Source: Antedon mediterranea
Taxonomy: Eukaryota; Echinodermata; Crinoidea; Comatulida; Antedonidae
Length of the DNA: 64,000 nt
Assembly (NCBI RefSeq): GCF_964355755.1
Contig: NC_092674.1
Location: forward strand, 26,214,001-26,278,000
Direction: 5' to 3'
The translations under genes were made by a program, and so were the position numbers. Within the stretch, counting starts at the first letter, position 1. The number at the start of each line of letters is the position of its first letter. This document shows positions 7,375-26,941 of the stretch, piece after piece. The notes below the pieces were generated by a model. It was not told the DNA's origin, made no database searches, and worked only from the letters and a program-made list of their open reading frames with translations.

Positions 7375-8600
7375 CTCAACAATGTTAAGTGTAGCTTCCA
7401 CAATGATCGAGATAAGTGTAGCCTCCACAATGATCGAGATAAGTCTACCCTCAACATTTATCGAAATAAGTCAGGCCTCAACAATTATTGAGATAAGTCT
7501 AGTCTCAACAATGATTGAGATAAGTCTAACCTCCACAATGATCAAGATAAGCCTAGTCTCAACAATGATCGAGATAAGTCTAACCCCACAATAATCAAGA
7601 TAAGTCTAGCCTCCACAATGATCGAGATAAGTCTAGTCTCAACAATGATCGAGACAAGTCTAGTCCCAACAATGATCGAGATAAGTCTAACCTCAACAAT
7701 GGTTGAGATAAGTCTAGCCTCAACAATGATTGAGACAAGTCTAGCCTCAACAATGATCAAGAAAAGTCTAGCTTCAACAATGATCAAGAAAAGTCTAGCC
7801 TCAACAATGATTGAGATAAGTCTAGCCTCAACAATTATCGAGATAAGTCTAGTCTCAACAATGATCAAGATAAGTCTAACCTCCACAATGATCAAGATAA
7901 GTCTAGCCTCCACAATGATCGAGATAAGTGTAGTCTTAACAATGATCGAGACAAGTCTAGCCTTCACAATGATCGAGATAAGTCTAGTCTCAACAATGAT
8001 CGAGATAAGTCTAACCTCAACAATGGTTGAGATAAGTCTAGCCTCAACAATGATTGAGACAAGTCTAGCCTCAACAATGATCAAGAAAAGTCTAGCCTCA
8101 ACAATGATCGAGATAAGTCTAGCCTCAACAATTATCGAGATAAGTCTAGTCTCAACAATGATCAAGATAAGTCTAACCTCCACAATGATCAAGATAAGTC
8201 TAGCCTCCACATGATCGAGATAAGTGTAGTCTCAACAATGATCGAGACAAGTCTAGTCTCAACAATGATCGAGACAAGTTTAGCCTCCACAATGATTGAG
8301 ATAAGTCTAGCCTCCACAATGATTGAGATAAGTCTAGCTTCAACAATGATCAAGATAAGTCTAGCCTCAACAATGATCAAGAAAAGCCTCAACAATGATC
8401 AAGAAAAGCCTCAACAATGATCGAGATAAGTCTAGTCTCAACAATGATCGAGATAAGTGTAACCTAAAAAATTATCGAGATAAGTGCAGTCTCAACAATG
8501 ATCGAGATAAGTCTAATCTCAACAATGGTCGAGATAAGTCTAGACTAAAGAATGACGCTATAAGTGTAGCCTCAACAAATTACCACACTAATGGAGTCGA
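7375..8600. repeat. 27-bp minisatellite, about 45 units
   Basis: The unit is near CTCAACAATGATCGAGATAA followed by GTCTAGC. Because 27 is divisible by three, both strands stay open for long stretches: 198 codons at 7618-8214 plus, and 222 codons at 7542-8210 minus. The predicted peptides are monotonous nine-residue repeats (TMIEISLAS and its antisense) with no start context or flanking exons, so I treat them as non-coding. The array ends about 170 bp before the 3' end of the MTMR gene. Confidence 0.9.
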
Positions 8601-8769
8601 GTTACTGTAAGTGTACCCTAAAAAATGACCAGAGGTAAGTGAACCTCAATGAAGTGTTCCTTCAATAACAAAGGTAATTGTGAAGTTATGTAATTATTTT
8701 ATTATTTGGCCAAGTGTGGCCAAAACAATAACCAAGCCTCTCATGAAAGGCAACCGAGCTGCACATGGC

Positions 8770-11700
8770 CTATGTTGAATTACCCACAAATGTGTCTTCA
8801 TAACTAAACGTTGAAGACACTGAGACAGGTGACATGGGCGGAGTTGTAGGCGAGGAGGAACCGGTCTTTAATTGTTTGTAACAGGGCCGGCAAACCGGTG
8901 TGGGTCGTTGAGAATAGTGACCAGGTAGTGATGTCTGCTTGTCGATGCAACGTATACAAAAAACATGACCACAACGCCAGCAATGGTACTGAAAAACAAT
9001 CGGAAAGAAATTCGCAAGAATGAAAACTACTCATGAAATTACATAAGCTTAAGTTTAAAAAACACAATTATTACGTAAAAATATTCCAACACTTACCTTT
9101 CTGCTGAAATGATCAAAAGGCGTTGCGCACGAACACTGCCGTATATTTCTGATCCTTTTCCAATCAATGCAAACCGACTCCATCGCTAAGTTTAATAAAT
9201 TTGCCGATAAAATGTCATCGCTATCTGTACTATATCTCGTATTTTCTGTCTGTACTTCTTGCGTCGGTATATGCACTCCATTTTGTGTCATTGTATTTTC
9301 TTTATTTAATTGTTCATCACTTCTTTCATGATTTAATACAGTTCTTTCATCTTCCGTTTCTTCTGTTACGTTCTCTTTAACAAGTTTTACCGGTTTTGTT
9401 TCAGTTTTCTTTCCTAATAACTTCTTAAGTTGTCCTATTTTCTGCAAAACATGATATTATTTTGATTACAGATGTATTGTCTTCCAAAACATGAAAAATG
9501 AAGATTAAAAAACATTAAATCTACTATATTGTAGTTTTAACAAAGTTAATCACTTCCATAGAAAAAAAAAAATAAAAAAAATTATGTTATCACTTATTAA
9601 ATAACAAAAACAGTTAATTTCAAACAAAAATCCATTGGCAGGATAAGTTTTTTCAGGTAAATAATTTTTTTTTCTGATTTTTTGGTCAAAGTGAGTAACT
9701 ACAGTATTATGGGACATTAAAATGCCATATTAAAAAAATAAATATAAAAAATTGTTTTTCAGGGGGACAATATATCTTTAATTGTTATTGCTCTTCTTGT
9801 AAAGAATATACTTATATTCCACATAATTAACATTTGTATGGAAATTCAATGCAGAAACAATTTATATACCCTCACATTTAGAATGGCCACATGGTAAGGA
9901 GAGATGAAATAAATTTATTTTTTATTTAAAAACAATAATACGTACATCTTCAAGAAATTTTTTATGGTCAGAAAGTGATGATGAGCGGTCCTTCATGGCA
10001 CTTAGCACGTCTTGTACAGATTCTCGCGGGTGAAGACCATTCTCAAAGCGGTTGTACATCCCACGCCAAAGTCTAAAATATATGTAAAATAATTTGAGCA
10101 AAAAGTTGACATTCCTTGAGCCCTAAACTCTGTCTACACTATCAAACATTATGTGACAAAAAAGTGTGATGTGCCCATATATGGACATGATGATGTCATA
10201 TAACTACCATATTTAGGTATATCATCACCATATTTGGGCACAAATCGTGTATTAAACAATTAAGCCAATCAAGGTGTTACAGCTAAAGCCTAGATCAGTT
10301 CTAGACAAATCCAGAATTGTACAGATCGACTTATAAACTAATCAGTATAAGAGATTGACTGGTAGGGCATTATTGAAGAAATAGGGCATTATTGAAGAAA
10401 TAATGCCCTAGAAAATATATACAAATTTTGTTTGTTTTGGTGTGTGCATATTACAATACACTTACTTGAACATTTGTGGACTTGTATTTGGTTTCAGAAT
10501 TCCCTTGGTGACTGGATGGTCTCTACGATACAATGGGTTCACATAGTCTGACAAACGATTTTTCATGTAACCCCATAATGAATATGTTCGTTCTGACAAT
10601 CTGCAATAACACAAGATTTAGGTTCATTCATTCATCAGTGGAAAATTACTTCAAATATACAAAAACAATTACAAAGTGTCACATCACTTTCGTACTGTAT
10701 ACTGACAATCATTCAGTGCCCGAACGGCAGATGGGTATGACCAACTAGCCATCCATTCATAGAAGTACTTATGTAGCACCTATCTGTACGGCAACTACAG
10801 AATGTGACCCAAGACATGACCACGACTTTTAGTTGATAGAAGATTGAAAAAATTATTAAGAGTAGTTGTACAGTACGTGGATGAAATATATAAATATTTC
10901 AATAATGTTTACATTCTAGGCATACTAACATTAATGTTAGTATAAAAAATGTTGAGTTAATTTAGATATAAGGACGAAAACCAGGTAAAATTATGTAATA
11001 AAAATTATATATTTCTATGCAAAAATTTGGGCTTCTTTTGTAAGATGAAAAGTTTAGTGTAAAAATATGGACACAAGATTTGAAGTAAAAGCGATGAATT
11101 ACCTAGACTCGCCTCTCTTTTTCTCACAATTGCCAAGAAACGTCCCAAACTGACACGAGTACACATGGTCATGCACTTCCAGTAGGAATCGTTCGTTAAA
11201 CTGGAATGCGCATGGAAACTGCTCCATCAAATGCCAGACGCCCTCTATGAACTGCGTGAACACAGGTGATTGCTCTTTTGAATCAAAATTAATGAGACCG
11301 CATCGATCAAGAAATTTGTGACCAAATGCTAGCCATTCTTTTTCTACTAGTACCTGTAATAAAAGGAAAATATGTTTTTAACCAATCATATGGCAAAGAC
11401 ACACTTAGGCACACCATGGAGATCTATTTTTATACCTCCATGGGCACACAATACAAAATCAACCAATCAAATTGCAAGGATACACTTAGGCACACAATAC
11501 AAAATCAACCAATCAAATTGCAAGGATACACTTAGGCACACAATACAAAATCAACCAATCAAATGGCAAAGATACACTTAGGCACACAATACAAGATCAA
11601 CCAATCAAATGGCAAAGATACACTTAGGCACACAATACAAAATCAACCAATCAAATGGCAAAGATACACTTAGACACAAAATACAAGATCAACCAATCAA

Positions 11701-14700
11701 ATGGCAAAGATACACTTAGACACAAAATACACAATCAACCAATCAAATAGCATGGATACACTTAGGCACCCAATACAAGATCAACTAATTAAATGGCAAA
11801 TTGTACACTCACCTGAAAACCTTGAATCGTTCTATAGTATGGGTCTAGTATCATTCCTGCAAGGGAACATGTCTGTGCTGTACGGTCCCAACCATCTGAG
11901 CAATGTACTAAAACACTAACAGCCTCTTCAGACACAGCCTACAAACAGACACAGATTCTTTTGGTAAAAAAACATTATAACCTCTATTATTTCGACACAA
12001 GGAAGTGTTCTTTTGATATAGGTGTGTCCCTTGAATAGGGTTGTTTGTAGTGTTGAAACATATATTTCCCTTCATTTGGTATTGTCCCCTTAATAGCGGT
12101 GTCCCCTGGATAGGGATGTCCTAGAAGAGGGGTTGAACTATAAAAAGCAGTATTGATATTAAAAACTACAATTTAGTCAGAATAATCTTAGAGACCATTT
12201 ATCTTCACAGGCTAGTAGAGTATATCCAGTTTGAATTTATATTACAATATATGCCGCTACGATCAAGGGTTAAAGGTCAGTTTTTATAATTTTTGATTCT
12301 TAATCCCGAGGATGATTAAAGCATATTGATCGAAACGTTTGGAAACTCAACAGTTCTTTTATTTTGCTCTGAAATATTCATACAATAAATTTTAAAAAGC
12401 AAACTTAAATCTTTGAATAATATGTAATGCGAGTGAATGCATATCTAAAAGACATCTGTTGATGCATTTATTTTTCATACTTATTTAACTGTTCATAAGC
12501 TAATAATCCATGTAACTGATGGTTTACATATCTGTACCATTTTATAGCATTAGTAGAGATTTTATGACGATTCACAATGAAAAAAAAATCATATTCAAGA
12601 ATCAATTAAACCAAATCTGATAATGGATATGGGTTCTGCTATATTTTAAAATTCTTATTTGAAGTGTTTTGTATTTGTTGTCTTTTTTTTGTCCTCTAAG
12701 CTGGGATGTTTGTTACATTCTTATATTTTATATTTGAAATAAAGGATGATTTTATATATACCTTAGCTATAAATAATGATGTGTCCATGACTGCTTTGAT
12801 ATGCTTTAACCAACCACTGTTTTCAATTCCACTTACTAATGCTTCCATACTTGGGTTTTTCAATTCACATACTAAAAAAATGATATAATTAGATATTCTC
12901 ACATTCTTTATTTTTCAATACCAAAGAATACAAATTTTGTTGTTTCTGTTTTCACTCGTAAGTCAGAATTTACTAGTCTTATCTAGTACATCTAGAAGAG
13001 ATTGAATAAAGAAATGAGTTTAGGCAGAGGTCCCAACTTGGGAAAGTCCATTCGCAGGAGATTTTGTCGTGAACCACATTCAATTCGTCGGGGCGTCGAA
13101 AGTCAACGCGCGGGGAATCAAAAATCAACACGCGTGTCGTTTACGTCTCCTAATTAACTAAATATGTTACATATACAGTATATACAATATTTACACATAA
13201 GTTGGTTTAATTTTTACATAGGTTTATCCATCATTATTTTTACATTCTTATTTTTTTTATGGACACATCCTCAGTACAAAGAATTTAAAAAATATATACT
13301 GTATTTTAACTAAAATTCAGTATATAAAATAATTTAACTTAATTACATAATGTACAATATTTACACATGATAGTATTGCCCAATAGAATTTACTCATTTT
13401 TTTTAGGCACAGGCCTAGCATAGGGCTTCTACTATACTAGGCCCTAGCTAGCTACCATTTTAAAACCCAAAAACAATCGAAATAAACTATTCCGAATCCG
13501 TCTTATGCTACATTACGCGAGTTAACATATTATTTCAGATGAAAAACATTGAGTTTTATATTGTTTTATCCATACGTAATTACACTGGCATTAAAGATAT
13601 AACATTAAAATGTAGGCCGTTTATGAGCTATTTCGCCGATTTCTTATCGCTGGGAAATTCCCCACCATCGACATCGATCGATCGAGGAGTAGGCCTAGGC
13701 TAGAATAGAATAGAGGCCTAGCGTGCATGCCGGAACGGGTGGATTATTGCAATATAAATAACAAGTTTGAACAAAAGAGCTTACGACAGTCTTAGGTAAA
13801 TTTTTATTAAACGTAGGCCTACTTGCTTGGCGAATCCATATGCCTTTTAAATCATTTGAACATGTTCGTATTATCGGATCGTACAGTAAAACCAAATAAA
13901 ACACCGTCTCAACAACCTCGTGCGATGTGCGATCTGTTGTTCTTTGCAGCGGATCAACATTGGTAGAGTCCATTAATTATGAGGGTGTTTAAAAATGTAA
14001 TAACTATTAAAAACGTGTCTCAACCACTGTGTAATCAAAGCGTTTATTTAGTTAAAACTTGAATCCTCCCAAAATTGATAATCGCGTATTCCGGTTACCA
14101 CGTGATTGATTCACGGTTGGTTGCACGCTTCTTTTTTTTTCTACGTCCGGCGTGTAGTACCGTGCATGTTTATATTATTGTTAAGGCAGTGCATACAAAT
14201 AAAAATACAATAATAGACCACGGAGACTGCATGAATAGACATTGTTTCAACATCCTGCCTCACTTTTGTATTGACTATTGTTGACCTGGGCTGAGCCTGG
14301 GTGTAACCGTAAATCAATTTGGCCAAAAATATGGGAAAATTTGAAAATGTGGACTTAGTACATTTTTCAAGACGAGTAGGGTTTTAGACGAACTAGCACC
14401 GTGGTTGGCAGAATCAACATGATGTGACCATAAAGCGTGGTTCCCACTAGCGACGCAGCGCAGCGACGTATTAATGCAAAGTGCTGTATTGCGTAATCAC
14501 GTGGGAACAGATGACGCAACAGTGCTGCAAACATCGCAGGTTTGATTTCGTGCAGACCACGCAAACACAATTATTGGAAGGGCATTTTCTTGAGTAGGTT
14601 GCGTCGCTAGTCGGAACCATGCTTTAGTGAAGAAGCATGTACTTGAAAAGTGTAACATCTAAGAGACAACATTGGTTATGGAATACTCTATATAAATACA

Positions 14701-17700
14701 TTAACATTAGGAAAAGCAAATAATATAAGAAAAAACATTAGTGTATTATGTATTGGTTTCAATTTCCATGTATATAATATTTTTTTTTTTATTTATTTAT
14801 TTATTTATAAACTTATTTACATGGATGACATTTTCATTAAAAATAATGTTCTTACAAATGGTCCATGATAAAAGAAATGTATGCATATAGTGAATAGTCA
14901 TAAGTTACAAAACATTTTTTTGTTGTTTTAGATTATAGAAAGATATACAAGAACATTTTAAATACAGATACAGAATTAATAATTATAATAATTATAAACA
15001 GTAGTAAGTAAGTACATCGCAATTACACAGGTTCTCAAGTTGAGGTTTCTATATAAATACATCATTTTTGTTGTGTTTCACCAATGACACACATTCTCAT
15101 AATGACAGACTTACCTTCAATAAGCTTTTGTAGACTGTTTCTCATAACATGAATGTTTTCAATTCCTATGAATTTAAACTTAATATTTGAATAAAAATCT
15201 GTGTTTTCGTAACCTTTCCCGGAGGCTTTGTTTACCATTGCATTAATCTGAAAATAAAAAATAAAAAATCAACAATCAGTCAAGAGTCGTATTATTGTGT
15301 ATTTAAAAAATGTTTGATTTTTTTTAGATCATAATTTTACAAATGACACTCAATTTGTATTCCACTTTTAAAAAATACAGATGTCTATGGAAGGCAATAC
15401 CTGCCAAAATAATGTGTATATGATGCATATGAAAGGCAATCTCTGCCAAAATAATCCGTATATGATGCATATGAAAGGCAATCTCTGCCAAAATAATCCG
15501 TAGTGCTTTATCTTTTTTGTTTTTATTGATAATTGATCGATGCCAATTTTTAATTGTCATTTGGTCCCATTTTCACATATTTAGTAGTTTTGTTGTATGT
15601 ACTAAAGGGTCTTTCGAAACAGGTGTAAAAGCCTCATAACACAAGATGTATGTAAACGTACCTTAGGCCTAGTATCAACAACATACATGAATGTACTCTT
15701 AGGGTTTGATTTAAGTATAGCTTGTAGCATCTGTTCATCTTCTAAGCACCTTGCACTGAATCCAGCAAGTGGTTGGCTGCACCGTGTTATAGTAGCCTAA
15801 AAACACAAAAACAATAGGGTACTCAAGTGAAAAAAAACAACATGGTTACTGAATAGAGTAGCCTTCAGAACAGATTTGAGCATGGTGGTAATAAGTATTT
15901 ATCACAAAGAAAATAATTTTGTCCTTTGATGTGTGTTTGATTAACACTACAGTATATACATTCAGTATCATATTCTTGTACAAAAGAGGAAGAACTTAAA
16001 TTAAATCATCTTTTGTATCTAATAACTCCTTACTTATCTTGATGAAGAATAACTGTACTACATACTTTGATATTAAGATCATTATTTAGTTTCAGAAAAG
16101 AACTAGATGAAAATAAATTCACAAGTCAAATAAATTGATTAGAATTAGTAAAGCTCTGTCTCAATATCGAACTGTTTTGGGTTTAAAAAAAAAAGTGTGA
16201 TGTGCCCAAATATGGTAGTGATATGCCCAAGTATGGTACTGACATCATGTCCATATATGGGCACATCACATTTGTTGTCACATAAAGTTTGATAGTGTAG
16301 AGAGCTTAAGTAATATTAGAAAATGTAAGTTAAATGAGAAAAACACTGAAACAATCCCCACCAAGTTCATACTATATGTTACAGACATTAATAAGCTCCC
16401 AATAACAATAACAAAAAATGAATAAAATATGAGCATACATAGTTGTCTCGATGGAGATACGACAAAACTGGCAGTCGCCCTCTACTTCTAAAACTTGCGC
16501 TACCGACAAGCACAGGAGTTGTTGCCGATGTGGGAACATAAATCTGTCTTGGATACGTGTCACAAATCTTTAAAAAAAGAAACACATTCGGTTAACACTC
16601 TTAAAAATTAATTAGAGGCCATTTCTGTCAAAATTACTGTGAGAACTATGGAAGGCAATCAATGACAAATAATTTGTAGATAACATAGATGGAAGTGATT
16701 CATGGCAAAATATAACATTTAGGTAACACTCTTAAAAATTGACGATGGCCATTTCTGTCAAAATGATGTACTTGTATGTGAGAACTATGGAAGGCAATCA
16801 ATGCCAAATAGTTTGAAGATAGCATAGATGGAAGGCGATTCATGGCAAAATATAACATTTAGGTAACACTCTTAAAAATTGATGATGGCTATTTCCGTCA
16901 AAATGATGTACTTGTATGTGAGAACTATGGAAGGCAATCAATGCCAAATAGTTTGAAGATAACATCTATGTGAGGCAATTCATATCAAAATAATGTGTAG
17001 ATGATGGGTTATATTTACATGATAGTTATCGTTGATGCCTGAACGATGCCAATTCTCGTTTGGTATTCCCATACGTGCATACTCCATCTCCATATCCATT
17101 ATCCCCCACCCTTCTGATATCGGTGTATCAATGCTGGCCGACTTATAGTGGAAAGCATACAAATCTCCAAGACGACCTGTAAGTTAAAAGTTTGCATAAA
17201 TTAATATCTTCTTTAAATGCTCAAACGCAGGAAAAGGGCTGATGTTGCTCTGTAAGTTAAGCTCTGTCTACACTATCAAACTAGTTTCACAAAAAAATGC
17301 CCATTTGGACATGATGGATGATGTCACATCACTACCATGTTTGGGCATATCCATACCATATTTGGGCACATCACACATTTTTGGTCAGACTAGTTTGATA
17401 GTGCAGACAAAGCTTAAAGCTTGAATTAAATATTTACCTGGCCTAGATAATTTTAGCAGTGACTTGTAAAGAGATTGGCAGTCTTTTTCTCTTGGTATTA
17501 TGAAGGTCGCCAACTGGAAGGTCTTACAGCGTATCTGGAGAGGGGATCCTGCCGTCGTTAGAGCAAGCTTCTCCACAGATGCAATGTGCATGTGTAATAT
17601 CTATAAACAAATATTAATTTAATACAATTATTTAATGGCTTTGGGTTATAGGTCTAATGATAATGTACTAGATTATGAAATAGTAACAGTGGCATAACAC

Positions 17701-20700
17701 AGAGGCCTGAGGTCCCGTAAGTGGCCCTCCAATGCTGGAGGCCTCTGGCATTTTAGCAAGTTAGCAAGTGAGCACTCATAGCCGTTACACCACTAAATTC
17801 ATTCAATTCATTCAAAGTAACATTTATTTTCTTCAAAATAAAACAGTCAACAAAATGGTGTAAAGAAAGGTAATATGATTGAAGAAGGCATGATCAAAAA
17901 AGTAAAAAGCTTGTGACAGACATGCCTAAACAAAGATTAGATAAAAACAACACGAAAAAAGAAAATAAATAAATAAATTAATTAATTAAAAAAATAAAGA
18001 AATAACAATATAAAAAATTTACATAACATGGGTTAAACTAAATAAGTAAAATAACAAAAAAAAAAAAAACAATTTTGGTATAAATAAAGAATTGATTCGT
18101 CTTTTTCTTGTTACTCTAATCTAATAAATACTAAAGAATCAATACAGTATATCCTGTGTATTATATAATAATAAAAATTCAATTTAATATAGCACAAAAT
18201 GCAGTGTGCCTCTAATCAACAGAAAAATAAATAAATTATTAAACTGGTGTATTTTCCAATATTTATCTATTTTGCTCTATTACTGTATCAATTTTATGTA
18301 CAAAACTACTTCTTTTTTTATATTATGAATTCTTTCTTTTTCTTATGTGGTTTAAATTCAAATTCCTTACAATAGATCTTGGATTTACATTCCATTAAAT
18401 TAATAACAGGAAGGAAGATCTACCAATTTACATTACAGGATATCATTATAAGGAAACTTAATACTTTATTTATTTTACTATTATTAAAATGCAGATAAGA
18501 AAATTATTTGTACATCTTAATACAAGATATTTTTTTATAGTTTTTACTACAACATTCTGTTCAATGGCTTACAATATTGTCACTGCAGGTGAAGTAAAAT
18601 CATTTTAATATAAAGGAATATGTTTTTTTATCCGGTTTAAAAATATGCCACTTAGCTATGAGTAAAGATCCTGTTACGTCAGAACTAATCGGTGTAATAC
18701 ACAGTTCTAATTATAACACTCCAACATCCTTTAATTATGACTTTTCAAAATAGCATGCCTCTTAATAGAGAACATTCTATCTACACTACTATAAAACTAG
18801 TTTAAAAAAATAGGTAATGTGCCCAAATATGGTAGTGATGCACAAATGATATTGATATGACATTGACATCATCATGTCCATATAGGGACATCATCATATC
18901 CATATGGGCACATCACATAAAGTTTCATAGTGTAGATACAGCTTAGTAAAGTAATTATATTGAGACAGTCACACAGGTCAGTAACAATGTTCTTATAAAA
19001 ACTCACCAACACAAGGAGACTGTTAATATAACTAAAGCTAGATTGAAGATACATATTTTGCTTTAAAAGTTTTCTGTTAAATGTCAGATGACAGTTCTCA
19101 ATGACAACATAAACTAAAAGTGTGAACAAGCAGGGTGAGTGACAAACTGACTTAATTAACTTAATTAGTTCTTGTGTGCTATTTCAAGTGTTAAGGTCTG
19201 TCTACACTATCAAACTTTATGTGACAAAAAAATGTGATGTGCCCATATGGACACAATGATGTCATATCACTACCATATTTGGGCATATCGCTATTAATTA
19301 TTATATTTGGGCATATCACACTTTTTGTCACATAAACTTTGATAGTGCAGACACAGCTTTAAGCTAAGTGGTCAATATCAACAAAATAAGTACAGTATAT
19401 AATTATTATTAATTATTCACATTTACTAGCCCAATAGACACAATAAGTGTTGGCAGTGATAAGCCAAGTCTTGCTTTAATGAAATAACTAAATCACAAAT
19501 TAACAAACATAGGCCCTAACCCAACACTTGTGAAAACAGGGAATTTTTAATTACAGGTCAAATTTTGGTCACAAACTTACGTCATAACTTCCTGTTCCCT
19601 TGTTGAAGGTTTAGTTTTTTTTTCAAAATGATATCATCAATTTGGGATGCAGAGACGTCGTAAGCAATAATCACATACATCTTGACGATACCCTACGTCA
19701 CATGACCACCGAGTCACTAATTAACGCGATAGATCTAAGCGGTACGATCTGTGTCCAAGGCACTAAATTTATCATCAGTCATCCTTGAATTTTTGGTATG
19801 TCATAAAATGTGTACATATAATTAATACTACAGCACTGGTTAAATTACAAAGCAAAAAACTTTACCCAGGTCTCCTTCTTGCCAGCTGGATCAGAGAATA
19901 TTAAGTGTGTTGCCGTTAAGTACAAAGCCCCCATTGCTGGCTTCCGTGAATGAAACCGATCAACAAGTCGAACATTATCAATCTTTAAAATAAAATATGT
20001 TAAAAGTTTACAGGCAAATATTGGAGGTTAACATCTAATAATTTTTTTTTTCCAATAAAAAAAAAAGAAATAGTACTTAATTACATTTTTTTGTTCTTAT
20101 GAAATTTTAAACAAACTAGTGATCAGATTTGTTTTCAAATGTAAATTTTTTTTTGTGATATAACGTTTCATAAAACTGAAATAAATTGGCATCAATGTAA
20201 TTATAATGACATTTGTCAATGTCATTTTAATAATATTAATAGAGTGCAAAATGAGGCCTAGGCCTACATCAGCCACCTAATTTCCTGCCATGAAGATGAA
20301 TCATGTATAAAAATACATGCAATGTTAATTTACAGAATGATATATTACTAATACACTACCCAATTCCATAACAAGAACAAAGAAATTACAGGTCAGATAT
20401 TGACAATAATTTTGTAGCCACATGTTTTTGTAAAATCTTGGAACCTACTGCACTTTCACACCTAATCTTCACTATCACTGCTGCACTGTTTTAAAATTGG
20501 GTTATTTGTATGTAAAGAGATTGAGGTGTGAAAGTTCAGAACAGTAGAGTTAGTAGTACTCCAAAAATATATCATTAAAATATTAATTTCATGTTTCTTA
20601 AACATCATTATTTATTTAATATTATTAATATAATTATAAACTAAAAATGTGCAGGCCTATTATTATATAATTCAGGTTTAGCCTAGGAGCTATAGTAATT

Positions 20701-22808
20701 ATAATAATATTTTATATATTAAAAATAAACAATTTCCATACATCAATTTTAAAATAATAACACATGTTTTGTTAATTATCCCAGGCCCAAACATCCAGCA
20801 CTCTAGGCCCTATCTCCTAGGCAAGGGCTTATCAATCAATCATGACTGTCACTGTCAGTCTCAAGTTCAACAATTCTAAATAAAACACACACACACAGTA
20901 ATCTCTAGACCTAGCCTGCTGGTGGTAGGAAGCTCTATATAGCCTACTCTCTAGGTAGGCTAGGCGGCGCTAATGCAGTTTCGTACCCACCCCTTAAAAT
21001 TACTCAAAATGATTTCAATACTTCATCTAGCCTACTCACGAGTTGTCTACAGCATTCAGCAAGCATAAAATGGTAAAATATCGATAATTTCTTATTTATA
21101 ACTATTTTTAATCAATTAATAATTGAGCACCCTTCAGAAATCCATCGCCAGCTTTAGCTTCGCGAAAATCATCGCTAGGCCTGCCGATGAAAGTACGGAG
21201 GCCTCATAGGGCATCGATCTATAGAGGACGCTGTTATGATCATATGGCGATAATAAAATATTTTTTACATGTTCCTCGTGAAACGGATTTTAAGTTTTTT
21301 TCATAAAGAAATATTTTGTGTTTAATTATGTTGTTAATTTTTAGAAATTCTATTTATTTTGAATGTTGTGTGTTATTGTCTTGTCAAATTATATTTTTTG
21401 TAAGGGTCCCTAATGATCAGCTTCGACTGGATGGACCACCCTCATAAAATATTGTTGAAATAAATTAATGAATAGTTGCTTCATTATTTAATGTTTAATT
21501 TGATTTTATTTTAATAAACACAACAGGAAAGAAGATAAAAAAGAAGAAATGAAAGACATGAAATGATGTATTCAGTGTCAGCAGAAGTAAAATAAATTCT
21601 AGTAATTAATTGATAGGAAACATTTTTATTATAATTATTGTATTACTGTACATTACATTTCAATAAATTATATCTTTCTGTTTTTGTTCCCTTTCTGTTT
21701 TTGTTGCATTTCCTATTTCCATGTATTGGAAGAGGTCTTTCATAGGTGAATAAAAAATGTTAATTAACAATAATATACTTCTATAAAATCTTAAAACAGG
21801 GAAACCATTAGCGTTTCTAGTATAGCTAGTGATAACAAATACTAAAACAATTAATTCGTTATAGCTTGATTATTGTGTTATAACATTAACAATGTAACTC
21901 AGGAATGAAGTACTGTAATTCTTTTTATTCATTTCATTTATTTATTTGACTTACAAACCATAATGTAAAATAAACTAAAACAGAGGAAAATTGGTCAGTA
22001 CTTATATCTTCAAGAGTCAGCAGTTCCATATTTATCTTCTTTTCTGTGTGAAATTTTACTAGTAAAATGAAAGAACAAATTAAAAACATGATGATACCCA
22101 CAATGATGAATACAGCAATTGTATAGTACAATATTTCTTTTCTTTATTAAAAATACGAAACGCATGTCGGAAATAATGAATATAATTATTTGGTGCGTGC
22201 TTTAAACGTTAGTAAATACGCCCTCTATAGAACGCAACTGTTTACTCTATTAATAGAGTTAATGTCCTGTGAGGCCTCCGTACTTTTATCGGCAGGCCTA
22301 GCGATGATTTTCGCGAAGCTAAGCTGGCGATGTATTTCCGAAGGGTGCTCAGTATTAATTGATTAAAAATAGTTTTAAATAAAAAATTATCGATTTTTTA
22401 CAATTTTATGATTGCAGAATGTTGTAGACAACTCGTGAGTAGGTTGGATGAAGATTTTGAATAATTTTAAGGGGTGGGTACGAAACTGCATTAGCGCCGG
22501 CTAGGCCTACGTACCTAGTCGCTATTATTAGGCTAAGGCACTAGCTAGGCCTATATGTAGGTCTACTATTATTCCATTTTAGGCCTAGGTAGGCTAGATC
22601 CTACTCTAGAGGCAACTACTACTGGCCTGGCTAGCTAGGCCTAGTTAGGTAAGGCCTAGTAGTAGAGTTTAGATACTCTGCCACGACTGGCCTGGCTGGT
22701 GGTTCCCTCTGGCTGGCCTGGGTAACTTTATAGGCCTAAATTTCGCCAGTTCTAGTTATAACGTTATCAAAAGTACATTCTTACCTTTGGAGTGGTAATG
22801 TGCTCCAT
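8770..22808 (-). CDS. MTMR6/7/8: myotubularin-related phosphatase (MTMR6/7/8 group) with FYVE finger
   Basis: Fourteen coding exons join in frame to 723 codons: 22785-22808, 19866-19982, 17438-17600, 17019-17176, 16439-16567, 15662-15796, 15115-15247, 12762-12871, 11813-11938, 11103-11353, 10466-10600, 9946-10072, 9097-9441, 8770-8988. Domain order is PH-GRAM (about 1-115), phosphatase (about 130-510), a polar linker, then a C-terminal FYVE-type zinc finger (about 637-690). The active-site loop HCSDGWDRT carries the Cys336-x5-Arg342 pair, so the enzyme should be active on PtdIns3P and PtdIns(3,5)P2 at endosomes, as known for this family. The FYVE part shows [16 protein letters not shown] and VCRPC; its first cysteine pair is spaced CxC rather than CxxC. 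A polyadenylation signal (TTTATT, minus) lies at 8698-8703. The upstream neighbour NUDCD2 is divergent. Exon 1 encodes only eight residues. Confidence 0.93.
9470..9780. mobile_element. element C (AGATGTATTGTC ends), copy 1
   Basis: The ends read CAGATGTATTGTC and GACAATATATCTTTAA, giving imperfect terminal inverted repeats related to element B. The interior is shared with 29917-30358 (phrases such as TAGTTTTAACAAAGTTAATCA). It sits in an MTMR intron. Confidence 0.65.
10127..10242 (+). mobile_element. R1 element, right end missing
   Basis: Begins CTCTGTCTACACTATCAAAC, then TTATGTGACAAAAAAG, the ATGGACATGATGATGTCAT core and two CACCATATTTGGGC units. It stops before the right inverted repeat. 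Located in an MTMR intron. Confidence 0.8.
11385..11800. repeat. 46-bp tandem array in MTMR intron
   Basis: About nine units built on AATGGCAAAGATACACTTAG and CACACAATACAAAATCAACC lie between MTMR exons 9 and 10. The open frames 11326-11919 are repeat by-products. Confidence 0.85.
11985..12135. repeat. dispersed repeat with GTGTCCCTTGAATAG phrases
   Basis: Short phrases such as GTGTCCCTTGAATAGGG and GTCCCCTTAATAGCGG recur near 36205-36300, 37130-37270, 38695-38730, 46385-46515 and 47890-48025, always in introns. This suggests one interspersed family; ends are not defined. Confidence 0.5.
13695..13973 (-). CDS. unidentified small ORF nested in MTMR intron
   Basis: From the ATG at 13971-13973 a frame of 92 codons opens. 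The first 63 codons (13785-13973) look compositionally like real protein, with a mixed hydrophilic start [10 protein letters not shown], a hydrophobic [17 protein letters not shown] stretch and a basic end near [14 protein letters not shown]. Directly after codon 63 there is a splice-donor-like GTAAGC, so the ORF could be a first coding exon, or an intronless 92-residue frame. The flanking 13.0-14.1 kb is richer in CpG than the surrounding intron, as expected of a promoter. I could not find the next exon or name a family. The phase does not fit use as an alternative first exon of MTMR exon 8. Existence as a gene is uncertain. Confidence 0.3.
   Translation of the reverse strand: MDSTNVDPLQRTTDRTSHEVVETVFYLVLLYDPIIRTCSNDLKGIWIRQASRPTFNKNLPKTVVSSFVQTCYLYCNNPPVPACTLGLYSILA
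14431..14626. mobile_element. MITE with TA flanks and ~25-bp inverted repeats
   Basis: TA-AAGCGTGGTTCCCACTAG at the left is matched by the reverse complement of CTAGTCGGAACCATGCTT-TA at the right. Inner sequence repeats GCGACGCAGCG-like motifs. TA target duplication suggests a Tc1/mariner-type mobiliser. The ORF 14367-14570 is a by-product. Located in an MTMR intron. Confidence 0.8.
14780..15010. other. AT-rich intronic stretch, possible retroelement tail
   Basis: A run of T followed by (ATTT)n at about 14779-14812 resembles the reversed tail of a retroelement, but I found no coding remnant next to it. Otherwise featureless MTMR intron sequence. Confidence 0.3.
15375..15505. repeat. about 42-bp unit, three copies
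   Basis: The unit combines GAAAGGCAATCTCTGCCAAA, ATAATCCGT and ATATGATGCAT and is repeated three times in the intron upstream of the MTMR exon at 15115-15247. The GGCAAT and GCCAAA phrases are shared with the larger repeat at 16.6-17.0 kb. Confidence 0.75.
16151..16307. mobile_element. R1 element
   Basis: Left end AAGCTCTGTCTCAATATC is degenerate; the right end GTTTGATAGTGTAGAGAGCTT is intact. Core units and ATGTCCATATATGGGCACAT are present. MTMR intron. Confidence 0.85.
16591..17000. repeat. tandem repeat, unit 131-140 bp, three copies
   Basis: Each unit starts TAACACTCTTAAAAATT and contains GAACTATGGAAGGCAATCA and TGCCAAATA. Unit starts are near 16591, 16723 and 16863. The last copy runs into the MTMR exon boundary region near 17000. 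Confidence 0.85.
17257..17418. mobile_element. R1 element with TTAA on both sides
   Basis: TTAA-GCTCTGTCTACACTATCAAA at the left, and GTTTGATAGTGCAGACAAAGC-TTAA at the right. This copy shows the element ends and the TTAA flanks most clearly. MTMR intron, about 20 bp from the exon at 17438-17600. Confidence 0.9.
18773..18944. mobile_element. R1 element, degenerate
   Basis: Left end ATTCTATCTACACTACTATA and right end GTTTCATAGTGTAGATACAGCTTA have several mismatches, and the central palindrome is partly duplicated. MTMR intron. Confidence 0.8.
19191..19362. mobile_element. R1 element with TTAA on both sides
   Basis: TTAA-GGTCTGTCTACACTATC at the left and GATAGTGCAGACACAGCT-TTAA at the right enclose TTTATGTGACAAAAAAATG and core units. 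MTMR intron. Confidence 0.85.
20951..21208 (+). repeat. left arm of long inverted repeat
   Basis: About 250 bp recur in reverse complement at 22270-22511, at roughly 85-90 percent identity by eye. Landmarks are GGCGCTAATGCAGTTTCGTA, CACGAGTTGTCTACAGCAT, CACCCTTCAGAAATCCATCG and GTACGGAGGCCTCA. Both arms lie in MTMR intron 1; the right arm lies about 275 bp downstream of the MTMR start codon. Confidence 0.85.
21400..21472 (-). repeat. copy of GGTCCATTCAGC-type retroelement tail
   Basis: Read on the minus strand, GAGGGTGGTCCAT, a GATCATTAGGGACCCT-like phrase and an adjoining A/T-rich end match 39893-40036. This suggests the 3' tail of a dispersed retroelement. No coding part is seen. Confidence 0.45.
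22270..22511 (-). repeat. right arm of long inverted repeat
   Basis: Inverse copy of 20951-21208. The spacer of about 1.06 kb contains a hydrophobic frame at 21934-22131 that lacks an ATG start. It may be an inverted duplication of promoter-proximal sequence, or the two ends of an unrecognised element. Confidence 0.85.
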
Positions 22809-23828
22809 GATTTACTAGTATTAAATACTGACAGCTGTGTAAATTAAGCCAGAGTGCTCCAAAATGATGACAAATGTTGACTTTTCATACGACTCGGTCA
22901 ACGAAAAAACGAATTTACAAGTTACAAATACTTCCGGTGTTTTCACAGCAGCAGCAGTCAGGGGGGTCAGGCTCCTCCTACTTTTCTAAACATCATTTTT
23001 ATTCTTTAGAAAAAAAATTACTAAACACCTCTATAAAAACTGTAAAGTGTAATAAATTATTCTGTTACTTTTTCGTCTTCATTTGTGTGAAAACTGTTGA
23101 GCTCTCACAAGATATTAAAACAAATTTTTCCATATTGACCTTTGACACATAGGCCTATATATTTTGTTTTCTTTTTACAATTTTGTTGTGCATGCAGGGT
23201 TTGTGGTGGTGGGGATCCCCTTGTGATGTGGTAGGTTGGTTAAAATGTATAAAAATAAAATAACCTAGCCTATATATGTTTATGCTATGTATAGATTAAC
23301 AATTTAATAGTTAGTAATGAAGACCATTTGGTGAAATGTACTGCATCAGTGCATGCATTTATGAATTACCAATACCAATTGCCATACCATTGCATTTTTT
23401 TGTGCAGGAGGAGGGTTGTGCATGTTGTTGGAGCAACCTGCTCTGGGAGAGATAGAGGGCTCTTCTCCTTATTTTTTACTTTTTATTTTCCATTTGTTTA
23501 CCTATTATGAAATTGATTTATATTAAAATATAATCACTATTAACCGAACATCTCAAACTACATATATATTACGACGACTGTATGATGTCCAGCCGACTGT
23601 GTACCCATTTTTACTCATATCGTCGTAGGCCTAACTGTGTTGTGGGCGATTTTTACTCAAACTACTCTAGTAACTACAAAATATTACTGTTGTGTGTGAT
23701 TTTTTTACGAAAAAGAGAAAAGCTGTTGCACAATGTCAATATTTATGGACTTTTTTTATTTATAATCAACTCATTTTTTTTTATCACAAAAATATTTATA
23801 TATAAATAGGTAGGTATTAAACTGAAGA
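22809..23828. promoter_or_regulatory. divergent spacer between MTMR and NUDCD2
   Basis: About 1.0 kb separates the two start codons, which point away from each other. Repeated AGGCCTA-type motifs lie just inside the MTMR gene. No TATA box is positioned convincingly. The frames at 22874-23152, 23328-23510 and 23582-23809 resemble no known protein. Shared promoter use is inferred from geometry alone. Confidence 0.45.
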
Positions 23829-25347
23829 ATGTCAACTAGTTTTGCTGAAAAAAGTGGATACATCCCTTGCAATACAGAATGGGGTATGTGGTACCAAACG
23901 CTGGAGGAAGTCATGGTAGAGATAAACGTAGAACCTGGTACCAAACCAAAGGAGATTAGTGTTGTCTTCAAACCAAAACATGTCACGTGTGTTGTAAGGG
24001 GAAAAGATATTATCAAGGTGTGAAATACTGGCCTTTATATAAGGCAATCTAACAACACTGAGCTCGCCTTGCCAAGATAGGAACTCGTAACAGTCCCTTG
24101 ATCTTATGTCTGGCTGCAACAAATACCAACAATACTATGTACAATCTGTATTCTCCATGGTGTCTGTTAAGGGGTGTGGAACTGATCGTGTCGCAGCCAC
24201 AGATAAACCCTTTGATCTCCAGAGCACAGCATCCAGTTGTTAGATTACCTTGGTATAATAGATTATATGCTTGTTTATATATTTATATATTTTATGTTTT
24301 TTAACCCTTTTAATGGCGACTTAATTTTATTTATTTATATTCAGTGAATTATATAACAAACTAAATTTTTTTTTTTTTCAGGGGGAATTATTTGCAACTG
24401 TACACTCGGATGAATGCATTTGGGATCTTGGTAAGATAATCCACTTACACCAAGGCAATCTAACAACAGGATACTGAGCTCCAGAGATCAAAGGGTTTAT
24501 CTGTGGCTGCAACATGATCAGTTTGACACCCCTTAACAGACACAGCGCGCCATGGAGAATATATACATAGTACAGTACTGTTGGTATTTGTCGCAGCCAG
24601 ACCTAAGATCAAAGGACTGTTACAATTTTTATCTTGGCAAGGCGAGCTCAGTGTCCTGTTGTTTGATTGCCTTGCTTAAACTAAACCCAATGAATAGATT
24701 GACATGGTGATATATAAACAATAGTATAATTAATATTCATTTTTTTTAGAGGATAGGAAGTTACTGCGACTGACTTTGACCAAAGGCAATCCATCGGCAG
24801 GCAACTGTTGGCAGTCCTTACTGAAGGGTCAGTACCTTGTTGACCCAATGAAGTTTGACCAGATGGAAAAGAAGCTTACACTGGAAAGATTTCAGAGTGA
24901 GGTCAGTCACCCCTTTTTTTTTCTACACCCCCATCTCTACACCCTGTCCCAGATCCCACTTTCCTACGCCCTGATCACCCTCTTTTCCATACACCCCATC
25001 TCTACAACCTGCACCATCCCTCTTCTCTACACCCTGGGCCAAGGTCTTCTTTACATTCCTGGCCCACCCTCTTCTCTACACCCTTACCTACCCTAACAAT
25101 AAGTAATTCTTTATCAAAATTTAAATATCCTTCTCCAATAGGTTACACAATGTTACATAATGTTGTATGTAATACTGTACAATAAAACTAAAATAACCTT
25201 TGATTTAGCCCTGCATTTATTATTGAAAATTCAGATTTTATTAAATTTAACTACCATTGACTCCCCTTCCAGAATCCTGGATTTGACTTCAGCGGAGCAG
25301 AAATTACTGGGAATTACTCGGGAGGTGGACCTGACCTTCCAAGCTGA
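23829..25347 (+). CDS. NUDCD2: NudC domain-containing protein 2
   Basis: Four exons (23829-24017, 24382-24430, 24750-24901, 25273-25347) join in frame to a 154-residue protein; the human protein is about 157. The CS/p23-like fold covers about residues 14-105, with landmarks WYQTLEEV, the DECIWDLEDRKLLR segment and NCWQSLL. The conserved tail runs LTLERFQSENPGFDFSGAEI then GNYSGGGPD. NUDCD2 is known as an Hsp90-associated co-chaperone that stabilises LIS1 and supports dynein function. Two polyadenylation signals (AATAAA) lie at 25457 and 25498. Exon 2 is only 49 bp and lies between two copies of one MITE in opposite orientation. Intron 3 begins with a pyrimidine-rich repeat. The MTMR gene is divergent upstream, GEMIN5 convergent downstream. 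Confidence 0.95.
24041..24251 (+). mobile_element. MITE in NUDCD2 intron 1
   Basis: About 211 bp with ends AAGGCAATCTAACAACACTG and, in reverse complement, AAGGTAATCTAACAACTGG. The same element appears in opposite orientation at 24452-24673. Inner landmarks are GCCACAGATAAACCCTTTGA and TTGCCAAGATA. Confidence 0.85.
24452..24673 (-). mobile_element. MITE in NUDCD2 intron 2, inverted copy
   Basis: About 222 bp, largely the reverse complement of 24041-24251 over nearly its full length. The pair brackets the 49-bp exon 2, so the pre-mRNA can form a stem of about 200 bp with that exon in the loop. Confidence 0.85.
24905..25100. repeat. pyrimidine-rich imperfect tandem repeat
   Basis: Phrases such as CATCTCTACACCCTG, CTTTCCTACGCCCTGATCAC and CTTCTCTACACCCT recur at 25-30-bp spacing at the start of NUDCD2 intron 3. 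The open frame that runs from exon 3 through it is intronic read-through. Confidence 0.75.
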
Positions 25348-26941
25348 TCATATTAACCGAATCAACATGAAAGAAGAAACTTATCTGAAATTCTTAGAAA
25401 AGGAAATAAAAAATGCAAAATGAAAAAACTCTGCTTTAATTATTCAGTTATCCATGAATAAATATTTAATATTATTTTTGCATATCACTTATTTTGCAAT
25501 AAAAGTTTTTAAAGTAAACTTGTTTTGTTTGTTCTTTTAGTATGTTGATCCATTTTGAGTCTCTTCAGCGTGCCTATCAGATGCAAGTGTAAATTTAGAC
25601 AATTTATCAACGTCACTGCCGTCTACCACTGATGACATTACATCTGTATCTTATACAAAGCCAGACTACACAGTATTTTAGCCTATGGTCTTTTCAATAA
25701 CTACTCACACAAATGAAAAGCCAGGTTCCCTAGCCTAGCTGTGTGTATATCTGTACCCACCATGCTGTAAAATAAAAAAAATTACAAAATGAAAAAAAAA
25801 ATGGGGAAAATTTAAATTTAAGAAGTCACTCTTTCCAGTTTTAAAAATCTTTATGAAGTTTATAATACTATTTAGAAAGAAATCTTCTATTATAGATTAG
25901 GGGCCAGGCCATAAATGCCTATTTATTAAGCTACTGTAATGATGGTTGTATTTATTTGATTTGCACATCGTAGTAGCAACCTATTGTAACTCTGTCCTAG
26001 TCAATTAAATTGTCATGTAAATACCGTACACAATAAATAAAACACAATCACAAATCCTAGTCATGTCCGTCTACGATTTGACAAAAACCAAGAAACAGTC
26101 GTATTGTATATACCACAAACAGTTTACTATGAAAGCTAACAATAATTACTAATAGTATTAATTATCTATTACTGTATGTGCTGTGTACTATGTTAGGTAT
26201 TTGTATAGCTGAATCTAGAAAATCATACAGTTATAGTACAGTAATAGAATTAGTAACAATATTATAACACACCTGCTTGTATTCTTAGCATTTGATTGGT
26301 TAACTATGCATCACATGTCGTTCAGAATTGGAAAAATTGATATCTAATGTTGATTAACACGCTCTAGATGCATGTTCAGCTTTTTGTAAATATTTTGAAA
26401 ATGTTTGCCTGATCTGTGTTTTGAAAATAAACTATAACTGTATTCTGCGTCTAAAGATGCAGCACTGCCCTTTTTAATGGCCTAGCATTCGTCAATTCGT
26501 CGAAAGATAAATTGAATAAAAGTACAGAAGGTGTTGATATAAAATTTGCGGTATATCAACATTTGATTTCGCCATGCAAACCTTCAAACAATACAGAAGG
26601 TGTGTTATAAAACAAATAATGAATGTTTTGTATTCATAAAATATTTCATTCAACGAAAAATTGACTGCTCATTATCCTTACCATCCAACTCAAAAACATT
26701 CATTATTTGCATTAGTATTATTTTAGTATAGTAAAATACATATTTGATAATTTTTAGCATCAACATCAAGTATTAGTCTAACTTGTATAAATAAATAATC
26801 ACAGTACAAATTTTTCATTGAAATTAAATCTTTTTATTTAAAAAAAAAATTAATTTTTTTTGTTATTAGCCTATTTACTTGGGTATGACACGTCACCCCT
26901 ATCATCATCAAATTGTGTTATATGTCCAATACCTACCTACG
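25348..26941. other. convergent intergenic region NUDCD2/GEMIN5
   Basis: Holds the NUDCD2 3' UTR (to about 25.52 kb) and the GEMIN5 3' UTR, with a minus-strand polyadenylation signal at 26833-26838. In between I see AT-rich sequence without exon-like frames or recognised repeats. Confidence 0.6.

Follow-up and report, generated by a model that had tools for sequence, protein, structure and literature searches.

A degenerate FYVE-type zinc finger at the C terminus of an MTMR6/7/8-type myotubularin from the crinoid Antedon mediterranea

To judge from sequence, the genome of Antedon mediterranea (Echinodermata; Crinoidea) contains a single MTMR6/7/8-type myotubularin phosphatase gene among the loci that we found, and its predicted product ends in a FYVE-type zinc finger with an unusual CxC first zinc pair. 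We consider it fairly probable that this lone phosphatase of the MTMR6/7/8 (R6) group retains an ancestral finger that was lost in vertebrates, and that the finger provides a basic docking surface not directed at PI3P. The gene lies within a window of 64,000 nt, the whole stretch of DNA analysed (NC_092674.1, assembly GCF_964355755.1, positions 26,214,001–26,278,000, forward strand), and the positions given for its features are numbered from the first letter of this window.

The gene occupies positions 8770..22808 of the minus strand, from ATG to stop codon, and consists of 14 coding exons for 723 aa, in a gene model accompanied by Pfam and PDB matches. The internal junctions all obey the GT-AG rule, with phases that agree from exon to exon. 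Exon 13 (9097..9441, minus strand; aa 537–651), which is single-copy within the genome, encodes the end of a coiled-coil-like region, an acidic linker and the beginning of the finger. The last intron (8989..9096, minus strand), of phase 0, has a GTAAGT donor and the acceptor TTTTTCAG; it separates RK from YHC and joins K651 to Y652, so that the splice from 9097 to 8988 proposed in the first-pass annotation was correct in this model, with canonical sites. The finger is followed by a Ser/Thr/Pro-rich tail (aa 693–723) and the stop codon (together 8770..8865, minus strand), and an AATAAA polyadenylation-like signal (8698..8703, minus strand) is found 67 bases past the stop. The same annotation attributed the finger to the last two exons; it does span both, but most of exon 13 is linker, and the finger comprises only the end of exon 13 and the start of exon 14.

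Since an intron splits the finger, whose halves come into a common frame only after splicing, a chance or misjoined FYVE match is very unlikely. The FYVE-bearing architecture of this MTMR6/7/8-type protein is therefore confirmed as a genuine feature of the predicted gene model. Reading on into the 5' end of the last intron adds a few residues before a stop codon, which would yield a finger-less form, and it might be argued that the exons of the finger are part of a different gene or are never joined to those of the phosphatase. However, the frame is continuous across canonical splice sites from exon 12 to exon 14, the intron interrupts the finger itself, the polyadenylation-like signal lies just 3' of the stop codon, and a second, independent case exists in Nematostella (discussed below), making such an artefact extremely improbable.

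Several other elements were noted in and around the gene. A 27-bp tandem repeat (about 45 copies of TAAGTCTAGCCTCAACAATGATCGAGA; window positions 7386–8578) begins about 120 bases past the polyadenylation-like signal and, on either strand, gives rise to long open frames that are spurious. At the other end lies a NUDCD2-type gene (window positions 23826–25423, plus strand), in head-to-head orientation to the myotubularin gene and separated from it by about 1 kb; the first exon of this neighbour resembles human NudC domain-containing protein 2 (2rh0, E 2e-14). The intron after the exon of the catalytic loop contains about 8 copies of a 46-bp tandem repeat (window positions 11443–11800). Short repeats resembling palindromes (with segments such as TGTGCCCATATATGGACATGATG and flanks of CTGTCTACACTATCAAACT) were recognised by eye in the myotubularin introns, at window positions of about 10100–10320, 16150–16290, 17250–17430, 18780–18930 and 19210–19350, and at other loci of the genome; they look like a family of miniature inverted-repeat transposons. 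Separately, a match to the vasopressin/neurophysin profile was rejected as a cysteine-rich stretch with no evident hormone peptide.

The assignment of the enzyme part to MTMR6/7/8, already made in the first-pass annotation, is borne out by its domains, its catalytic loop and its closest solved relative. A PH-GRAM domain of the MTMR6–9 type (PF21098, 139.7 bits, cut-off 23.5) covers aa 8–99 and is encoded by exons 1–3 (17445..22787, minus strand), and a myotubularin phosphatase domain (PF06602, 484.9 bits) covers aa 107–445, encoded by exons 4–10 (11114..17162, minus strand). The active-site loop HCSDGWDRT (aa 335–343; 11879..11905, minus strand) has an intact CX5R motif, shared with active paralogues. 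Among solved myotubularins, human MTMR6 (2yf0) gave the highest score, 721 bits, and was collinear over residues 1–508, followed by MTMR8 (562 bits, for a shorter chain), MTMR2 (425 bits) and MTMR1 (378 bits). Members of the R6 group usually have no C-terminal FYVE domain, whereas one was found here at residues 630–692; this absence is a usual trait of the group and not its definition. The enzyme part is conventional; by analogy with the family, it would remove the 3-phosphate from PI3P and PI(3,5)P2 and pair through its coiled coil with an inactive MTMR9-like protein. MTMR6, 7 and 8 are known to pair with MTMR9 (PMC10961392).

Comparisons within this genome were based on searches of 354 Mb in 18 contigs. 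A COX1 search of the assembly gave no match. The first exon of its tektin-2 gene scored 239 bits against chain 8J of 8snb, the sea-urchin sperm doublet, and at most 147 bits against the other tektin-2 chains, as would be likely for an echinoderm or other ambulacrarian; a tektin-3-type query was closest to mammalian chains and carried no information on this point. The myotubularin profile identified six gene loci genome-wide, and PF21098 was detected at only one other locus, on contig C1. The catalytic loop of this second gene (HGSEGLDAT) is dead, and the gene probably corresponds to the expected MTMR9-type partner. Another of the loci, on contig C3 (L029), encodes a myotubularin ending in a canonical FYVE domain (WVPD...CMHC...NRKHHCRACG...RVC), and this gene was therefore assigned to the MTMR3/4 (R3) type. 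Elsewhere in the genome, three near-identical FYVE exons are located within 70 kb (C9:25462575-25531167; L047, L049 and L050), which suggests that a FYVE gene has recently expanded in tandem.

The FYVE profile PF01363 matched residues 630–692 with 49.5 bits in the whole protein (E 4.5e-13, cut-off 27.8) and with 52.0 bits when the C-terminal part was used alone (same cut-off, 27.8). RING models were considered as alternatives, but each remained under its own Pfam cut-off, so the finger proposed from the first reading stood up to profile comparison, with the FYVE match scoring far above them. The last exon was recovered by itself in the genome-wide FYVE search (E 9.9e-9). An NCBIfam search gave nothing relevant and a scan of viral contigs revealed no relatives. 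The NCBI CDD contains a FYVE-related class for uncharacterised myotubularins of eumetazoans.

The finger was aligned with the solved FYVE fingers of Hrs, EEA1 and RUFY1. Its N-terminal part (aa 630–651; 9097..9162, minus strand), delimited by these alignments and by the PF01363 match, has W630xxI633 in place of WxxD, and its C-terminal part (aa 652–692; 8866..8988, minus strand), delimited by the PF01363 match, ends in PVCRPC. All eight zinc-ligand cysteines are present (C639, C641, C654, C657, C662, C665, C684 and C687), as the first-pass annotation had stated, and its numbering of the first two matches the 723-aa model. The first pair, C639-S640-C641 (9127..9135, minus strand), is CxC rather than CxxC, as read directly in the sequence, and HMMER placed a one-residue gap between these cysteines. 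The spacing from Trp630 to Cys639 is that of EEA1, with one residue fewer between Cys639 and Cys641. Wherever a finger of this genome has an RxHHCR core and its first pair could be read, that pair is CxxC, and two divergent fingers have a wider spacing, leaving the CxC pair unique among the fingers read. This spacing may displace the first zinc site or make it weaker; it could also reflect an error of sequencing, or a change confined to this lineage that destroys the site.

FYVE domains that bind PI3P carry the signatures WxxD, R(R/K)HHCR and RVC (PMC8233823), and none of the three is intact in the Antedon finger. WxxD is replaced with W630-K-R-I633, in which the tryptophan is at the normal distance from the first cysteine, R(R/K)HHCR with R650-K-Y-H-C-W655, and RVC with P682-V-C684. 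An arginine after HHC is present in every other finger read from this genome, and an arginine before the seventh cysteine in all the others for which that stretch was read. The earlier proposal that the finger reads the membrane of the enzyme's own substrate or product is weakened, since WxxD, the arginine after HHC and the arginine of RVC have all been replaced; of the departures from a canonical finger, the first-pass annotation had recorded the CxC pair alone. A working PI3P reader, docking the enzyme on PI3P-rich endosomes and coupling the phosphatase to its own substrate, would be consistent with a FYVE score well over the cut-off, and with the retention, from the R+HHC motif, of R650-K651 and H653, as well as of a hydrophobic loop residue, F648. 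By alignment, F648 falls within the loop that EEA1 inserts into membranes. However, these replaced residues make such a reader rather unlikely, and departures from the consensus accompany a loss of PI3P binding in other proteins: protrudin, whose FYVE domain does not conform to the PI3P consensus, uses it to bind other phosphoinositides, and the FYVE domain of PfRbsn5L showed no recruitment by PI3P (PMC11168701).

The net charge of the R6-type finger is +11, and the four fingers set beside it range from +2 to +4, although net charge by itself is a poor predictor of membrane docking. Given the loss of the PI3P-contact signatures together with this strongly basic character, docking driven by charge or by a protein partner appears the most likely function, and a basic membrane or protein anchor resembling that of protrudin seems likelier than a PI3P reader. 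The finger would fold around two zincs, with a phenylalanine kept in the membrane-insertion loop, and would dock weakly, by virtue of its charge, on membranes that are acidic or contain polyphosphoinositides, or on a protein partner. Rather than sensing PI3P, it would thus help to keep the phosphatase where it acts. The main rival to docking is a vestigial finger, an ancestral FYVE domain under relaxed selection and on its way to a loss of the vertebrate type, with its first zinc site broken. The replacement of CxxC with CxC and the loss of all three PI3P motifs speak for such decay; we nevertheless regard it as doubtful, because the eight cysteines, the open frame and the clean splice sites persist, the Pfam score is still high, and the high positive charge looks directional rather than random.

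The combination of an R6-type myotubularin with a FYVE domain is already known, and the new part is the degenerate, basic CxC finger. Kerk and Moorhead assigned the Nematostella sequence N001626810 to the R6 group and observed that it ends in a FYVE domain, although they described this domain as "characteristically absent" from R6, and they did not find it in the R6 member of Trichoplax (PMC2927912). For the Nematostella case they suspected either an exchange with an R3 (MTMR3/4) gene or an error of assembly or annotation (PMC2927912). A literature search for FYVE domains in the MTMR6/7/8 proteins of other animals returned only this study, and passages about the Drosophila orthologue CG3530 contained no description of its domains. 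The Antedon gene is, then, the second case that we can document of a FYVE domain on an R6-type myotubularin, and, as it is independent of that of Nematostella, annotation error is disfavoured.

The possibility that the finger was gained by exchange with an MTMR3/4 gene, as Kerk and Moorhead suggested for Nematostella, draws on the fact that a C-terminal FYVE domain can occur in both subgroups (PMC2927912). However, both genes carry a finger in Antedon, and their introns differ in position and phase. In the MTMR3/4-type finger, a phase 2 intron interrupts the arginine codon after HHC, whereas the intron of the R6 finger is in phase 0 and lies about three codons away. Furthermore, when the R6 finger was used as a genome query, the MTMR3/4-type finger was not among the matches, which included several other fingers at E values of about 1e-4. 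A recent exchange is therefore disfavoured, and we judge the exchange scenario as a whole to be very improbable, even if a very old event of this kind is possible. At the RK/YHC intron site of the R6 finger, an AG acceptor also occurs in six further FYVE genes from this genome, although gain or sliding of an intron could have led to the use of this site. The simplest reading is that the finger was present in the cnidarian–bilaterian ancestor and was lost in vertebrates, as we infer from its presence in two lineages and its reported absence from vertebrates (PMC2927912). The first-pass annotation held that the protein "keeps" its finger, and ancestral retention is indeed favoured by the Nematostella case and by the intron evidence from the Antedon genome.

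The 2010 survey left the Nematostella FYVE domain undecided between domain exchange and assembly error (PMC2927912). The Antedon case, in which the MTMR3/4 finger is still present and has its intron at another site, argues that the finger is real, old and lost in vertebrates. It would be bolder to propose that the R6 finger represents an ancient and separately evolving subclass of FYVE domains (CxC, no PI3P motifs, strongly basic) in the cnidarian–bilaterian ancestor, that it reads a lipid other than PI3P, such as PI5P or PI(3,5)P2, and that its loss rewired the targeting of MTMR6/7/8 in vertebrates. We consider this proposal speculative and improbable as a whole, but, if the finger did read one of these two lipids, it would be reading the product of the enzyme or its other substrate. 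A comparison of MTMR6/7/8 proteins that have the finger with those that lack it could reveal what the finger contributes to targeting.

In comparison with known systems, the Antedon protein shares with human MTMR6/7/8 an MTMR6-like PH-GRAM domain, an active phosphatase motif and a coiled-coil-like segment, but it has a FYVE-type finger, whereas the R6 group is described as characteristically lacking FYVE (PMC2927912). MTMR3 and MTMR4 (R3 group), like the MTMR3/4-type gene of this genome, are active myotubularins with a C-terminal FYVE domain, as is the protein described here. However, the finger of that R3-type gene is canonical (WVPD, CMHC, RKHHCR and RVC) and has its intron elsewhere, whereas the R6 finger has a CxC pair and has lost the PI3P motifs. 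Nematostella N001626810 is likewise an R6-group myotubularin with a C-terminal FYVE domain, the likeness being one of architecture. Finally, protrudin (ZFYVE27) resembles the Antedon finger in being of the FYVE type without the consensus PI3P residues, but protrudin is anchored in the ER and is not a phosphatase, whereas the Antedon protein is a predicted phosphatase with putative lipid binding.
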